From: an alpha proteobacterium HIMB59
GTDB taxonomy: Bacteria > Pseudomonadota > Alphaproteobacteria > HIMB59
DNA length: 64,000 nucleotides
Assembly (NCBI GenBank): GCA_000299115.1
Contig: CP003801.1
Coordinates: 62,001 to 126,000, forward strand
Reading direction: 5' to 3'
Below, piece by piece: positions 39,009 through 62,139 of the stretch (the stretch's first letter is position 1; each line of letters begins with the position of its first letter). The position numbers and the translations under genes were made by a program. The notes below the pieces were generated by a model, which did not search any database, was not told the origin of the DNA, and saw only the letters and a list, made by a program, of their open reading frames with translations.

Positions 39009-39429
39009 TGTTCATTAATTTATTAATTATCTTTAGGTCACCTTCTAAGAAATCATAATCACCTAATTTTGAAATATCAATCCATTTCAATTGTTGATGA
39101 ACTTTGTTTTGTAATTCGCCATCAAATTGGAAAATTTGAAAAAAAACAAGTTTCAAATTTTTTGATAATTTCTTGTATTCATAGAGATATTCATCAAAAA
39201 AAAATATTTCATTAATTTCTATATTTAATTCTTCTTTTAATTCTCTTTTTAAAGCCTCTTGGTTATTTTCAGCATCTTTTAATTTTCCTCCAGGAAATTC
39301 CCACTTTAAGGGATGATCTCCTTCTTCTTTTCTTTGACAAATAAGAATTTTCTTATTTTGATAAATTAATCCCCCGACAACAACTTTAGGTAAATTATTT
39401 GTTCTTTGCTCGAGCAATGTAAATTCCAA
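38992..39429 (-). CDS. mutT: 8-oxo-dGTP diphosphatase, MutT/Nudix type
   Basis: A 145-residue Nudix hydrolase. The Nudix box GGKLKDAENNQEALKRELKE followed by ELNI fits G-x5-E-x7-REU-x-EE-x-G-U except that the last Gly is Asn. The N-terminal VVVGGLIYQNKKILICQRKEEGDHPLKWEFPGG is typical of MutT, which removes 8-oxo-dGTP from the nucleotide pool. It overlaps the frameshifted EamA gene upstream by 35 bases and leucine dehydrogenase downstream by 17, so the cluster is a single transcript. The start is taken at the ATG at 39429; a shorter form beginning nearer the PKVVVGG block is possible. Confidence 0.88.
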   Translation of the reverse strand: MEFTLLEQRTNNLPKVVVGGLIYQNKKILICQRKEEGDHPLKWEFPGGKLKDAENNQEALKRELKEELNIEINEIFFFDEYLYEYKKLSKNLKLVFFQIFQFDGELQNKVHQQLKWIDISKLGDYDFLEGDLKIINKLMNNDSNI

Positions 39430-40266
39430 TTAGAATAAGTATGCATCCAAAAAATTGTATAGAATTGAGTTTTTCTTGGAAAAATAAATAACCAAGAATT
39501 GTAGCGGCTATGGGCTGGATTAATAAGGTAAGCGATGATGTGGATGCAGGTAAATAGGCTAAAGCATAAGCAATAAAAGCCTGTCCTAGAAATTGACAAA
39601 CAAAAGCCAACAAAAATAAAACAATAATGGAATTTATTGTCTGAGGAATAAGTTGTTGTTCAAAGATAATTGAGACAATGATTAAGATTATTGAAGTTAT
39701 TACTCCAGAAATAAACATAATTGAGGTCGTATTATATTTTTTTCTTAATTGGCTAATTGTGATTATATAACTGCCATACCAGACAGCTGTTAAAACACCT
39801 AATAAATCTCCAAAAAATTGATCTTTATTAAATTGAAAGCTTTCTCCAAGAAGAAGTGTCATCCCTCCTAAAGATAAACCCGCAGCAATGTAGAAAAACT
39901 TCGTGAACTTTTCTTTCAAAAAAAAATAGGAAAATAATATGACAACAACTGGAGCTAAATTAGATAAAAAAGTTGCTTTGGATACAGTTGTTAATTTTAT
40001 AGACCAGTGCCAACAAATTAAATCTAGTGCAAAAAATAATCCTGAAAAAAAAATACTAAATAATAGTTTTTTACCTCAGGAAATTTTATTTTTTCGATTA
40101 TTCCAGATGAAGAAAAAAATAAAAAAAAGGGTAAGCTTAAAAAAATACGATAAAAGGCAGTCATAATCGGATCAACATCAGAAAATCTGACAAAAATAGG
40201 AGAAAAAGCTATTCCCAAAGCTCCTAAAATTAGAACAAAAAAAGGATTAATTTTATATTTAAGCAA
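39395..40266 (-). pseudogene. EamA/DMT family transporter interrupted by a frameshift in an A9/T9 run
   Basis: Two reading frames together encode one EamA-type permease of about 290 residues. The first begins at 40266 (MLKYKINPFFVLILGALGIAF, then VRFSDVDPIMTAFYR) and runs off frame after FPEVKNYYLVFFF. Adding one base to the A9 run at 40045-40053 restores the second frame exactly: SGLFFALDLICWHWSIKLTT, KATFLSNLAPVVVILFSYFF and on to the stop at 39395. Both halves are well preserved, with no other lesions, so the break is recent, a sequencing error, or tolerated by slippage. EamA proteins export metabolites. The gene overlaps the MFS gene by 8 bases and mutT by 35. Confidence 0.85.
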
Positions 40267-41461
40267 AGACTTCTTCTGATTTTTCTTTTTCGATGATTGG
40301 AAAATGAATAATGGCAGAAAACAATGAGATGATAATAGCCATAATCCAAGCTAAGTCCAAAGACCCGTAAATATCGATAACCAAGCCTCCAACATAAGAT
40401 CCCACAAAAGCACCGCACTGATGGGAAACCATCACGATGCCAAAGAGTGTTGATAAATATCTTGTACCAAAGCGATTAGCGACTATCCCAGATGTTGGTG
40501 GAACAGTAGAGAGCCACAACAAACCTATCAAGCAACTAAAGGCAATAATAATGAAATTATTTGTAGGCAAAATCAAAAGTAAAAAAATTACGATGCTTCT
40601 TGTAAAATAAATAAAAGATAAAACGTATTTTTTTTTGACGATACCTGAAACACGGCCAGATATGAGTGTTCCCATCATATTAAAGATACCAACTAGGGTT
40701 AAGCCAGTGGCTGCAATAGTGGTTTCTAATCCTTTGATTTTTGCAAAAACGGGCAAATAGTTAGATATTAGAGCAACATGAAGTCCGCATACAAAAAAAC
40801 CTAAAATTAAAAATTGATAACTTTTATCTTGAAAAGCTGTTTTAATAACATCTGAGATTTTTCTAGGGGTATATTCTTTTTTATTTTTATTTACTGGTTT
40901 GGGTATCAAAAAAATTAAAGACATAGGAATAAATAATAAAAAGAAAACTGAGACTATTTGAAATGAAACACTCCACTGAAAGGTGGAAACTAAAAACTGA
41001 TTAATTGGTGTAAAAATAAACATCCCAGATGCAGCAAGTGACATCAAAATTCCTGTGACTGTACTTCGCGTTTTATCATCTTCAAAATATTTGGAAACTC
41101 CTCCTATAATAACAGGAACAGAAATAATTCCTGCGGACAAACCTCCAACAACCCCTAAACCAAAAAGGAAATGAAGAGGGTTTATGGCAGAAGAAGTAAT
41201 ATAAAAACTAAGTGAAATTCCTATAAAACCAACTATTAGAGTCTTTACATAACCTTTTTGCTCTGCAAAAGCTCCTGCAATTGGAGACATACAACCCCAA
41301 AGTAAATTAAAAATTCCATAAGTTAATCCAATCATCGATGCGCCAAAAACTGTGGAGCTTAATAAATCTGGTACATAGATTCCTAATGACATTCGAAATC
41401 CATTACCGACTGAAAGGATTAAACCGGCGACAAGAATGAGGAAGAAGGACTTCATTGGCAT
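40259..41461 (-). CDS. Major facilitator superfamily transporter
   Basis: A 400-residue membrane protein with twelve hydrophobic segments. The MFS loop 2-3 region (GCMSPIAGAFAEQKGYVKTL) and the central charged loop (residues about 188-212, PKPVNKNKKEYTPRK) are in place. Residues near the start (GLILSVGNGFRMSLGIYVPDLL) resemble monocarboxylate or oxalate-formate type carriers. The gene is the first of a tight minus-strand cluster with EamA, mutT, leucine dehydrogenase and a membrane protein. The substrate is unknown; a carboxylate or 2-oxo acid would agree with leucine dehydrogenase downstream. Confidence 0.88.
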   Translation of the reverse strand: MPMKSFFLILVAGLILSVGNGFRMSLGIYVPDLLSSTVFGASMIGLTYGIFNLLWGCMSPIAGAFAEQKGYVKTLIVGFIGISLSFYITSSAINPLHFLFGLGVVGGLSAGIISVPVIIGGVSKYFEDDKTRSTVTGILMSLAASGMFIFTPINQFLVSTFQWSVSFQIVSVFFLLFIPMSLIFLIPKPVNKNKKEYTPRKISDVIKTAFQDKSYQFLILGFFVCGLHVALISNYLPVFAKIKGLETTIAATGLTLVGIFNMMGTLISGRVSGIVKKKYVLSFIYFTRSIVIFLLLILPTNNFIIIAFSCLIGLLWLSTVPPTSGIVANRFGTRYLSTLFGIVMVSHQCGAFVGSYVGGLVIDIYGSLDLAWIMAIIISLFSAIIHFPIIEKEKSEEVFA

Positions 41462-41528
41462 AAAATATATTAAAGTTATGAAAAAAATATGTTTATTTTT
41501 ATATCCAAAATCACTATAGTGCCTCGCT

Positions 41529-41612
41529 ATGGGATATCCAAAAAAACACCGTGGACGCAGAAAAATTGGTTCACGTAAACGTCGCGCTAAAAGAAGAGCA
41601 AAGAAGAAGTAG
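41529..41612 (+). CDS. Ultra-small, extremely basic protein (27 aa), ribosomal-protein-like
   Basis: A 27-residue frame starting MGYPKKHRGRRKIGSRKRRA and continuing with more Lys/Arg; 16 of 27 residues are Lys or Arg. Composition and length resemble tiny ribosomal proteins such as bTHX or the basic core of mS38/AURKAIP1-type proteins. A -10 box TATAGT at 41515-41520 would place the transcript start about two bases before the ATG, so the message may be leaderless; there is no Shine-Dalgarno. Codon choice (CGT, CGC, CGA-free Arg mix, AAG run) is richer in G+C than the flanks. Identity as a ribosome component is inference. Confidence 0.6.
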   Translation: MGYPKKHRGRRKIGSRKRRAKRRAKKK

Positions 41613-41635
41613 TTTTAATTATTCTTGATTTCTAA

Positions 41636-42076
41636 TTAACTGTTTAGAATTTCGAAAAGCTCAAGATACTCTTCGCTATCTTTACCTGCTGCAGACTCTA
41701 GTCTATCCAAAAGTTCAAAGGCCTCTTCAAGCCTGTCGGTTTCATAATATAATTCACCCAAGTACTCTAAAGCACCGATGTGCTGATCGTTAATCTTTAG
41801 AGCTTTTAAGTAATATTTTTCAGCTTTTTCAAAATTAGGTTTTTGTTGTTTACGAGTTGCGTACCCAAGATAATTATAAAGATCTGCTTTTGTATATCCA
41901 TCAGGTGTTTCAGTAAGTAATTTATTAAGAGCTTTGATAGCTTTTTCAAATTCATATGATTTTATTAGTTTTTCAGCCTTTAAGTATTCTTTATTTGCGT
42001 CAATTGAACTACTGGAGCCAGCGCTAAAAGCGAGGGATTGAACAAACAAGAAAAGTGTAGCAAAAATTAATTTCAT
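41636..42076 (-). CDS. Secreted TPR-repeat protein
   Basis: A 146-residue protein with a signal peptide (residues 1-19, LIFATLFLFVQSLAFSAG). The rest is three tetratricopeptide-like repeats: AEKLIKSYEFEKAIKALNKLL, ADLYNYLGYATRKQQKPNFEKAEKYYLKAL and IGALEYLGELYYETDRLEEAFELLDRL, with the usual small-residue and aromatic positions. Periplasmic TPR proteins act as scaffolds in envelope assembly. It is monocistronic, diverges from msrB, and resembles in layout the other secreted TPR protein at 62.7 kb. No specific partner can be named. Confidence 0.8.
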   Translation of the reverse strand: MKLIFATLFLFVQSLAFSAGSSSSIDANKEYLKAEKLIKSYEFEKAIKALNKLLTETPDGYTKADLYNYLGYATRKQQKPNFEKAEKYYLKALKINDQHIGALEYLGELYYETDRLEEAFELLDRLESAAGKDSEEYLELFEILNS

Positions 42077-42122
42077 CTTATCTTTTTATACTCACATTGT
42101 TATAGTCAGATTAGGAATAATC

Positions 42123-42590
42123 ATGATTAAATTAAATCGTAGATCCTTTGTTTTATTTTTAACAGGAAGTTTATTTACAGGAGTAAAACCTTTGATGTCT
42201 ATAGAGAAGCTAGAATTGACCGATGTGGAATGGCAAGCCAGATTAAGTAGTGAAGAATATTATATTTTAAGAAAAGAAGGCACGGAAAGACCTGGGACGA
42301 GTATTCTTAATGATGAAAAAAGAAAGGGTACTTATCACTGCGTTGGATGTGAGCAACCACTCTTTAGTTCAGATATGAAGTTTGATAGTGGAACTGGTTG
42401 GCCTTCATTTTTTGATTACCTCCCTAATGCTTTAGAATTTAAAACTGACTTTAAACTTGTGATTCCTCGCAAAGAGTACCATTGTTCACGTTGTGGAGGA
42501 CATCATGGGCACGTATTTAAAGACGGGCCAGAACCCACAGGTCTACGATACTGTAATAATGGATTAGTACTAAACTTTATTCCGGATTAA
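42123..42590 (+). CDS. msrB: Exported peptide-methionine (R)-S-oxide reductase
   Basis: A 155-residue MsrB with a twin-arginine-like signal (LNRRSFVLFLTGSLFTG, residues 4-20). The domain is complete: zinc-binding CVGCEQPLF and CSRCGGHHGHVF, substrate-site FDSGTGWPSF, and catalytic Cys in GLRYCNNGLVLNF near the C-terminus. MsrB reduces methionine R-sulfoxide in proteins. Export to the periplasm through Tat is unusual compared with the common cytoplasmic form; reducing power could come from CcdA, encoded at 35.2 kb. It ends in a TTAA shared with bioY. Confidence 0.93.
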   Translation: MIKLNRRSFVLFLTGSLFTGVKPLMSIEKLELTDVEWQARLSSEEYYILRKEGTERPGTSILNDEKRKGTYHCVGCEQPLFSSDMKFDSGTGWPSFFDYLPNALEFKTDFKLVIPRKEYHCSRCGGHHGHVFKDGPEPTGLRYCNNGLVLNFIPD

Positions 42591-60484: not shown

Positions 60485-62139
60485 TGCAGATAGATTTACG
60501 CAAACCAGAATTTGTCATGAAATTGAATCGATTAGGTTCATTTCACCAGTCAAAGCTCTCCTTTTTGAGAAGTTTTATTCGTGAATTTAAAGATTGGGAA
60601 TTTGAAACGAAGGAAATATCCCTTGATCAAATGGGGTTTGGGCATTGTGTCTATGTTGTGAAAAATGGCTCAAAACAATACTCTTTGGTTTGCTTTTCAA
60701 ACCACCTAGATGATAGTGAGCGTTCGGATCGAGTCATTGCTACTAAATGGGATGCGTCTTTTGTGTTATTTGATGGCGTTCCGTCAACCGAAGACATACA
60801 ACGCCTAAAAGATAATGTTCCCCTTCAAGAACAGGGTCGCGTAACCGAAAAAGAACTTTGCTTATCTCGTGCTAACAAATCAGTCAGAGTCTTTGAGCAC
60901 GTTGTCGATCAACTCTCTCAAGGAAAACAACCAGATACCAAAATTTTATACGATGTGGGTTATCTCTATCGCACAACTGCAGTTTATGGTTCAGGAAAAT
61001 TTGGATTAGCCGATCGTATTAAAGTTCAAGATCGTGAAGAATTAAAAGGGCCGTTTCGATTAGAAATGATGCTTGTATTTTTAGCAAGACAATTCACTTT
61101 TGATATGGTCAATCACGTAGCCTATCAACGATCCCCTCAATCAGCAGTAATGCTCGATGATAATATTGCTCGAAACTTAGGAATTGGAAATTCAACAGGT
61201 TTAGGGATGGCACCTTTTATTGTTAATCACCCTGCTCTGCTCAATCAATGGATACATTCAAGAGAAAAAGCGCTTCAAGCTATACGAAAACTTTCCGAAG
61301 TAACAAAAGATGAATTAGAAAAGTTTGCATTTTATCTCTCAACTATTCAAGAAAACATAAAATTTTGGAAAACAGATAGCGAATATCAAATTAAAAAAAA
61401 TAATGAGCTTTCTGAGGATTTGACTCAATTTAAAAAATACTTATCAAAAACTTCTTTAGAAAAATTTTTTTGGAATTCTTTATATCTGTGGGTTGAAGAA
61501 AATACTCAGCCAGAATGTTGTGAGCTTATTGTTTCACTTTTAATGGAGGTCTACCCTGATTTAGTAGAGCCTTTAAGTTATGAAATGTCTATTGATGAAG
61601 AAGATTATTTCGATATTGATACCTCCAGAACAATTGGAGATATTTGCAATCTCATCGAAAATCGGTATGGATGGCTGATTGATATCAACTTTGAGAACAA
61701 AGATAATATCTATAATTTTTGGTACTACTCTAAAAATAAACAAGAACCAAGAATGTCTGACCGATTTAGCGAGGAAGGAGCTGAGCTGGAGCTGCCCCTA
61801 GCTATTGCAAGAGATATCAACCTTTTATATAAGCAGCTTAAAAACCATAATCCAATGGAGCACCTATCAAAATATTTACAAAAAAGTCAAGAATATCGGC
61901 ATGTTTTAAGGAGAATTTTTATCTGTGAAAAACTTCCCTACTCTGAGATACAAGATAATACGATTTCAAAATCACTTATACCTGTGGATATGCTTCGATT
62001 AAAATTATCATTTTTTGGTGCTACGAGATTTGATCCTCGCTCTGATCGATGGGTTCGAATTACCATGTATCAAGGGGCGCCGCTTATGAAAGAAATCAGT
62101 CTTTCAGATGATACTTGGTCTTATAAAAAAATTGCCTGA
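60484..62139 (+). CDS. Protein of unknown function (551 aa), coupled to DUF3726
   Basis: A 551-residue protein with no signal peptide, membrane helix or domain that I recognise. It is not low-complexity: notable conserved-looking stretches are YDVGYLYRTTAVYGSGKFGLADR (about 156-178), GIGNSTGLGMAPFIVNHP (233-250) and, near the C-terminus, FFGATRFDPRSDRWVRITMYQG. Cys, His and acidic residues are scattered without a clear metal motif. It begins in a TGATG overlap with the M19-like gene and ends in another TGATG overlap with the DUF3726 gene, so all three are translationally coupled. Genomic position ties it to use of an imported onium compound; no activity is proposed. Confidence 0.85.
   Translation: MQIDLRKPEFVMKLNRLGSFHQSKLSFLRSFIREFKDWEFETKEISLDQMGFGHCVYVVKNGSKQYSLVCFSNHLDDSERSDRVIATKWDASFVLFDGVPSTEDIQRLKDNVPLQEQGRVTEKELCLSRANKSVRVFEHVVDQLSQGKQPDTKILYDVGYLYRTTAVYGSGKFGLADRIKVQDREELKGPFRLEMMLVFLARQFTFDMVNHVAYQRSPQSAVMLDDNIARNLGIGNSTGLGMAPFIVNHPALLNQWIHSREKALQAIRKLSEVTKDELEKFAFYLSTIQENIKFWKTDSEYQIKKNNELSEDLTQFKKYLSKTSLEKFFWNSLYLWVEENTQPECCELIVSLLMEVYPDLVEPLSYEMSIDEEDYFDIDTSRTIGDICNLIENRYGWLIDINFENKDNIYNFWYYSKNKQEPRMSDRFSEEGAELELPLAIARDINLLYKQLKNHNPMEHLSKYLQKSQEYRHVLRRIFICEKLPYSEIQDNTISKSLIPVDMLRLKLSFFGATRFDPRSDRWVRITMYQGAPLMKEISLSDDTWSYKKIA

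Follow-up and report, generated by a model that had tools for sequence, protein, structure and literature searches.

A strongly constrained 27-codon gene shared by HIMB59, SAR11 and phages encodes a very basic peptide that may be a small accessory ribosomal protein

The window analyzed here is a stretch of 64,000 nucleotides (positions 62,001 to 126,000 of contig CP003801.1, forward strand) of the alpha proteobacterium HIMB59, whose genome consists of one contig of 1,410,127 bases. A small plus-strand gene sits in the gap between two minus-strand genes, which code for an MFS transporter and a TPR protein. The features of the locus are as follows.

40259 to 41461, minus strand: gene of an MFS transporter, divergent neighbor (context only).
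41481 to 41500, no strand assigned: A/T-rich, inverted-repeat-like stretch AAAAAAATATGTTTATTTTT, upstream of the -10-like box.
41515 to 41520, plus strand: -10-like box TATAGT, ending 8 nt before the ATG and overlapping a minus-strand TATAGT.
41529 to 41612, plus strand: 27-codon gene; core residues 3-12 are YPKKHRGRRK, followed by xGSxxR and a basic tail.
41636 to 42076, minus strand: gene of a TPR protein, convergent neighbor (context only).

Read directly from the sequence, the small frame begins with an ATG at 41529, ends with a TAG at 41610-41612 and encodes MGYPKKHRGRRKIGSRKRRAKRRAKKK, a product of 27 residues of which 16 (59%) are lysine or arginine. The frame, its length and its composition agree exactly with the preliminary description. 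Two peculiarities of the surrounding genes are noted. Three other genomes of the genus (L070, L071 and L072) lack the TPR gene at the corresponding position and have an MsrB gene directly after the small gene. An EamA-type transporter, which is one frame of 289-291 residues in the same three genomes, is represented here by two minus-strand open frames (39395-39919 and 40024-40266), reflecting either a broken gene or a sequencing error.

The position in an intergenic gap is in keeping with a chance open frame or a conserved non-coding DNA element. This reading nevertheless has next to no probability: the codon-position data already refute it, and the three Rfam matches reported over 41400-41700 (E 0.035-0.75) all fall far under their gathering scores. 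Among 19 distinct coding sequences from the genus, variable sites number 8, 0 and 21 of 27 at codon positions 1, 2 and 3, and synonymous variation is seen at 22 of the 27 codons as against amino acid variation at only two; together with the unrelated surroundings of the gene elsewhere, these patterns exclude it. The pN/pS ratio is 0.075 for the same 19 sequences, 0.097 for a SAR11-type group of 83 sequences, and 0.071 and 0.042 for the two remaining groups (8 and 4 sequences), an overall range of 0.04-0.10 for four groups that were set by peptide pattern among 194 loci and contain 27-residue members only. Judged by its substitution pattern, the 27-codon frame is a real protein-coding gene under strong purifying selection, and it survives the check on frame conservation and on synonymous versus non-synonymous change that had been proposed for it.

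The full-length peptide is encoded by 49 of 60 genomes of the order (HIMB59 included), with one match in each, and by all 17 genomes that are at least 90% complete; the 11 without a match are less complete (50-88%), and a wider profile at E<=10 recovers nothing from them. The two families of the order span 78-100% identity over the full length. The genus itself contributes 28 of 37 genomes, with 27 identical peptides and one that is 96% identical, and the second family 21 of 23 genomes, at 78-81% identity; the peptide of the HIMB59 isolate MED-G104 is 96% identical. The proposal of a conserved but overlooked tiny protein is borne out by this distribution and by the purifying selection, and the family libraries searched hold no match to it.

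A class-wide draw of 385 Alphaproteobacteria gave 13 genomes with the peptide, from four families: the two of the order, a family denoted f99, and a further alphaproteobacterial family, f25, in which four genomes carry it. A fourteenth match (G138, E 0.002) lies inside a 77-codon frame of different sequence and was judged to be chance. We take f99 to be the Pelagibacteraceae, and its order the SAR11 order, on the ground that the same peptides occur in records named as Pelagibacteraceae. Within that order a match is present in 132 of 197 genomes, all in f99, although one covers positions 1-14 only. Of the 65 SAR11 genomes without a match, the 20 listed comprise 18 from the sister family f174 and two from f99; with the wider profile at E<=10, in searches that carried no positive control, the peptide was found neither in the 18 f174 genomes nor in two f99 genomes that are 99% complete. 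The protein is therefore not universal even in the SAR11 order. The lack of the gene in f174 (G440 and others), alongside its wide presence in f99, could reflect loss or a gene that was never gained.

Outside these groups the peptide is rare. A sample of 249 genomes of the phylum at large returned HIMB59 itself and one weak partial match, and several other Alphaproteobacteria with small genomes (such as G064, G067 and G076) gave no match. The best 80 of at least 238 confirmed places in a scan of named genomes include one contig named Gemmatimonadales (L151), which encodes MGYPKKHRGRRKIGSKRRRMRRKRRKGLRLRKK. A sample of 200 genomes of the Gemmatimonadales phylum gave five matches, that of the genome of L151 included, with versions of 28-33 residues. 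Since the surroundings of these five are 60-69% GC, the products are of 28-33 residues and all five leaders contain a Shine-Dalgarno-like 4-mer, SAR11 contamination does not account for them. The preliminary expectation of a protein confined to its own lineage is thus too narrow: the gene is also carried by SAR11, by one more family of Alphaproteobacteria, by phages and by a small number of genomes from the Gemmatimonadales phylum. The kinship of SAR11 and HIMB59 is described as disputed (PMC3815206; PMC10308909), and a patchy gene common to both is worth weighing in that debate; however, because phages carry it, the co-occurrence could be explained by transfer.

The distribution also bears on whether the product might be a secreted or stress-type antimicrobial peptide, or a phage or host takeover peptide with no ribosomal site. 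The peptide is cationic, and the bS22 and bL37 peptides of C. acnes are described as inhibiting the growth of some bacteria (PMC10085706). Yet it has no signal-peptide-like leader, it is present as a single chromosomal copy that is nearly unchanged in about 190 genomes overall, and its core is common across phyla, all of which make such a role very unlikely.

The neighboring genes change from group to group. Those of the HIMB59 family (f1) are MFS and MsrB genes, those of the second family (f2; L073) are rpe, LysR and SbmA genes, a sigma-70-type factor gene is adjacent in f25 (L081), and f99 has mnmA (L083) or a gene for a Cys/Met PLP enzyme (L084). No ribosomal operon was recognized among the neighborhoods examined. 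Since the neighbors differ among the groups and the core YPKKHRGRRKxGSxxR is constant, the gene product, on this comparison, is one that acts in trans.

The region upstream is conserved in a manner that suggests a very short leader. All 16 distinct upstream sequences of the genus (21 if distinctness is judged on upstream and coding sequence together) have a TANNNT box ending exactly 8 nt before the ATG (TATTAT in 8, TATAGT in 7 and TATGAT in one), and none has a Shine-Dalgarno-like 4-mer within 45 nt. From the usual spacing of a -10 box, the transcription start is predicted to lie 1-2 nt before the ATG. All 16 sequences also contain ATGTTTATTTT, and the A/T-rich stretch at 41481-41500 is a possible UP element or an operator common with the divergent MFS gene.

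The same box could alternatively serve as the -10 element of the MFS gene. A promoter scan of 41350-42150 listed no plus-strand site at the small gene but did list the partly palindromic box on the minus strand, facing the MFS gene, with 9 of 12 matches; four sites were found in all, versus 3.1 expected. The minus-strand box is present in 11 of the 16 upstream sequences (TATAAT in 8, TATAGT in 2, TATCAT in one) and absent from five. Leaderless messages as a general habit find no support within the window, where TANNNT-type boxes at 6-10 nt precede 6 of 64 longer genes versus 5.46 expected. The earlier suggestion of a leaderless message is plausible, given the spacing in every sequence and the lack of a Shine-Dalgarno sequence, and is weakened by the second use that the box may have and by the lack of enrichment in the window. 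Elsewhere the arrangement differs. The second family of the order has TTGAC[AT], a gap of 16-18 nt and TATNNN ending 9-12 nt before the ATG in seven of seven sequences; a Shine-Dalgarno-like 4-mer is found in none of these seven, in none of four from f25, and in 68 of 78 from the SAR11-type group. These counts make a very short leader likely in the genus of HIMB59, where the message may be near-leaderless, and suggest that the mode of initiation varies among groups in which the protein is constant.

Relatives of the gene are also present in phages. A scan of IMG/VR identified 24 viral contigs that encode one, and the exact-core pattern matches these 24 and two more; the products are 28-40 residues long. 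Three genomic contexts can be distinguished. In the first (a), 12 contigs carry a GroES-type gene and a gene for a 312-residue protein, with a holin gene in 11 of them, and virion-type genes adjoin; in cultured pelagiphages, relatives of the 312-residue gene sit a few genes before the capsid gene. In the second (b), nine contigs share a gene for a 123-residue protein, accompanied by an endonuclease gene in five, by HNH and integrase genes in L209 and by a DNA methyltransferase gene in L210; a 178-residue neighbor in this context has no match. In the third (c), L201 and L212 carry dCMP deaminase and HD-hydrolase genes, and L212 an RNA ligase gene as well. L203 stands alone, and L234 and L239 lack all nine of the neighbors compared. 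The phage genes appear constrained too: over the first 25 codons, synonymous variation affects 14 codons versus two with amino acid variation in context (a) (12 contigs, four distinct sequences), and 9 versus one in context (b) (six of the nine contigs, four distinct sequences).

A search with the 312-residue neighbor led to 10 annotated phages, among them the cultured pelagiphages HTVC027P and HTVC023P; the stretches read from four of the 10 do not contain the motif. Searches by tblastn gave no match when one member was compared with annotated phages and one with plasmids, a result made uninformative by low-complexity masking. We note that other very basic proteins of 36-39 residues precede the GroES gene in HTVC027P (L225, 1997-2107) and in phage 023Pt_psg01 (L227, 1222-1338 and 2517-2636).

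The phage neighborhoods bear on two other possible roles of the peptide. As an RNA-binding subunit or regulator of some other ribonucleoprotein (RNase P, tmRNA or the degradosome), or as a general RNA chaperone, it would have the same composition and the same trans-acting behavior, and the RNA ligase and dCMP deaminase genes of L212 could be read in this light. No gene of such a particle was recognized beside the small gene, nor does any specific evidence point to one, and we regard this role as unlikely.

The other role is that of a protamine-like peptide that binds DNA and condenses the nucleoid of small-genome cells or the phage genome during packaging, for which the composition speaks and with which the virion-type genes of context (a) are consistent. 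The recognized neighbors in contexts (b) and (c), however, are nuclease, integrase, methyltransferase, deaminase, HD-hydrolase and RNA ligase genes, with no head genes among them, and the small-genome Alphaproteobacteria that lack the peptide also speak against it. So does the anatomy of the peptide. G14, S15 and R18 are invariant in all 41 distinct peptides, which come from phages and from bacteria belonging to two phyla, although the search expression required YPKKHRGRRK and none of these three residues. Position 19 is arginine in 38 of the 41, lysine and arginine swap freely at positions 21-23, 25 and 26, and the total length ranges from 27 to 40 residues. No core with one to three substitutions occurs among the loci collected, although this count required the core and many loci were selected for parts of it. 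Such residue-specific conservation is unlike what loose binding to a backbone would produce, and DNA condensation is accordingly an improbable function. The pattern suggests instead that the front of the peptide makes specific contacts and the tail loose ones. An AlphaFold2 model of a 35-residue phage member, built with 15 sequences, is a single helix over residues 8-34 (pLDDT 81.8, pTM 0.38). Lone short basic peptides are often predicted as a helix, so the model gives weak support to a helical form.

A plausible scenario, and on balance a somewhat probable one, is that the 27-residue protein binds RNA and serves either as a small accessory protein of the ribosome or in ribosome assembly. This reading fits best because it accommodates a fixed, residue-specific front with a loose basic tail, together with size, charge and carriage by phages, although family, PDB and alignment searches detected no homologous ribosomal protein. 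In this picture one particular, strongly conserved pocket of the rRNA would receive the invariant N-terminal core M-x-YPKKHRGRRK-x-GS-xx-R, and the Lys/Arg tail, variable in sequence, would run on along the RNA backbone as a helix, in the manner of bS22, mS38 and eL41. Phages carry copies of their own, as some do of bS21 and bL12, and with these they would perhaps alter or displace the host protein at a late stage of infection. RNA as the ligand, the ribosome as the site and this role in phages are what we infer.

The rRNA sequences themselves proved uninformative as a clue to the binding site. In stretches from 23 genomes and E. coli, presence or absence of the gene is not marked by any 16S or 23S columns beyond what other groupings show. 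Among the alphaproteobacterial families, and by number of separating columns, the partition by presence and absence ranks 38 of 56 in 16S and 5 of 25 in 23S, in a ranking that omits G443 (gapped) and three genomes of the phylum sample; the columns are confounded by base composition and by a length-variable hairpin near E. coli 1165-1182. Usable 16S sequences from the Gemmatimonadales phylum sample came from three genomes, one that has the gene and two that lack it. The 23S hairpin in question differs strongly in length among the families compared (L242-L264).

A more specific proposal is that the peptide mimics, or competes with, the N-terminal rRNA-binding segment of the large-subunit protein uL16. 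Of 28 E. coli ribosomal proteins compared with YPKKHRGRR, uL16 scores best, with FRKMHKGRN at residues 9-17 (score 26, the next being 20). The likeness had been spotted by eye before the test, though, and 105 of 20000 shuffles reach the score, which is not significant (about 0.15) once corrected for the 28 proteins compared; with four alternative cores the number is 45-1954 of 20000 shuffles, uL16 drops to fifth with an 18-residue profile (z 0.9), and uL16 and the S10 operon of HIMB59 were not found in 60 sampled stretches. We consider this proposal highly improbable.

SAR11 and AEGEAN-169 are among the most abundant marine bacteria. If the protein is ribosomal, gene lists of these groups that omit it miss a strongly constrained part of protein synthesis, and marine phages would have a way, so far unseen, of acting on host translation. 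For the question of how small proteins are acquired and lost by ribosomes, a core of ten residues that is unchanged in Alphaproteobacteria, in phages and in a few Gemmatimonadales-phylum genomes would be a clean test case. We tentatively suggest, as a possibility rather short of probable, that YPKKHRGRRKxGSxxR defines a new family of ribosomal proteins that is present in SAR11 and AEGEAN-169 ribosomes and has moved between phyla, and of which phages swap their own version into host ribosomes.

The small protein has no sequence match in Pfam, NCBIfam, PHROG or the PDB. This holds in Pfam for the HIMB59 peptide and for 10 members of the alignment, in Pfam and NCBIfam profile scans that included bL34, bL37 and bL38, in the PDB for the HIMB59 peptide, the family profile and a 33-residue member, and in 38880 PHROG profiles for six members at E<=10, where HMMER filters drop most weak matches. 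When alignments are compared with shuffled ones, members score z 11-12 against each other and -1.6 to 2.8 against known proteins. In the literature searched, no mention of GYPKKHRG and no paper on a cryo-EM structure of the Pelagibacter ribosome were found, and titles and abstract openings yielded nothing on the small-protein family; global small-protein catalogues (e.g. PMC11364881) may contain it as an unnamed cluster.

The preliminary description had likened the composition to that of bTHX, bL34-like proteins and mS38, and in size and charge the peptide does resemble known tiny ribosomal proteins. bTHX (Thx, PF17070), which is located in the head of the small subunit, likewise has 27 residues with its Met, starts with MG and is rich in lysine and arginine. 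Kinship with it is not measurable: alignments to T. thermophilus Thx do not outscore shuffled sequences (z -1.6 to 0.1), PF17070 has no match in the HIMB59 genome at E<=1, and none of 115 Alphaproteobacteria exceeds its cut-off (59 weak matches at E<=1), with seven of 14 control genomes matched and one over the cut-off.

There is a likeness also to bS22 and mS38 (COX24_C, PF08213) and to eL41, which also goes by the name eS32. Profile PF08213 exceeds its cut-off in none of seven genomes, six of which have the gene, and matches at no small-gene locus, with one weak match of 13.9 bits elsewhere in G855; the control, Corynebacterium glutamicum, matches over the cut-off. This miss is weak evidence, since a phmmer search started from bS22 recovers mS38 at no better than E 0.19 (range 0.19-9.9). 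None of 54 genomes of the Gemmatimonadales phylum sample (five with the gene, 49 without) matches PF08213 at E<=0.01, so a test of complementarity with bS22 says nothing. Alignments of three members with two bS22 sequences give z -1.0 to 2.8, and a single pair exceeds 2, a Gemmatimonadales-phylum member with bS22 of M. smegmatis (z 2.1 local, 2.8 global); alignments with eL41 (z -0.9 to 1.1) stay within the shuffles. The bS22 sequences seen differ in lacking the fixed YPKKHRGRRKxGS, but because homologues of such size are barely detectable, as with bS22 and mS38, remote kinship is possible. bS22 and eL41 are 24-33 residues long, and these proteins are described as 55-65% basic and helical (PMC10085706), with bS22 and eL41 each forming a basic helix in a pocket of h27, h44 and h45 (PMC10618245; PMC10085706). 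The bS22 of Borrelia, with 61% lysine and arginine, is reported to have been unannotated and to be the sole ribosomal protein missed by mass spectrometry (PMC10618245).

The comparisons with bS22 and with phage bS21 and bL12 serve as analogies, not as tests. Phages are described as carrying exchangeable ribosomal proteins, including a bS21 in a pelagiphage, and phage bS21 and bL12 as entering ribosomes (PMC6375957). These are small accessory ribosomal proteins that occur, like the protein described here, in both cells and phages and under purifying selection; unlike it, they are homologues of known ribosomal proteins, whereas the small cellular protein matches no described family searched. Phage bS21 can sit among structural genes (PMC9723584), which resembles context (a) with its holin, GroES and virion-type genes. 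By description, the protein can also be likened to bL37 and bL38, small lineage-restricted ribosomal proteins that were revealed by structures (PMC10618245; PMC10085706).
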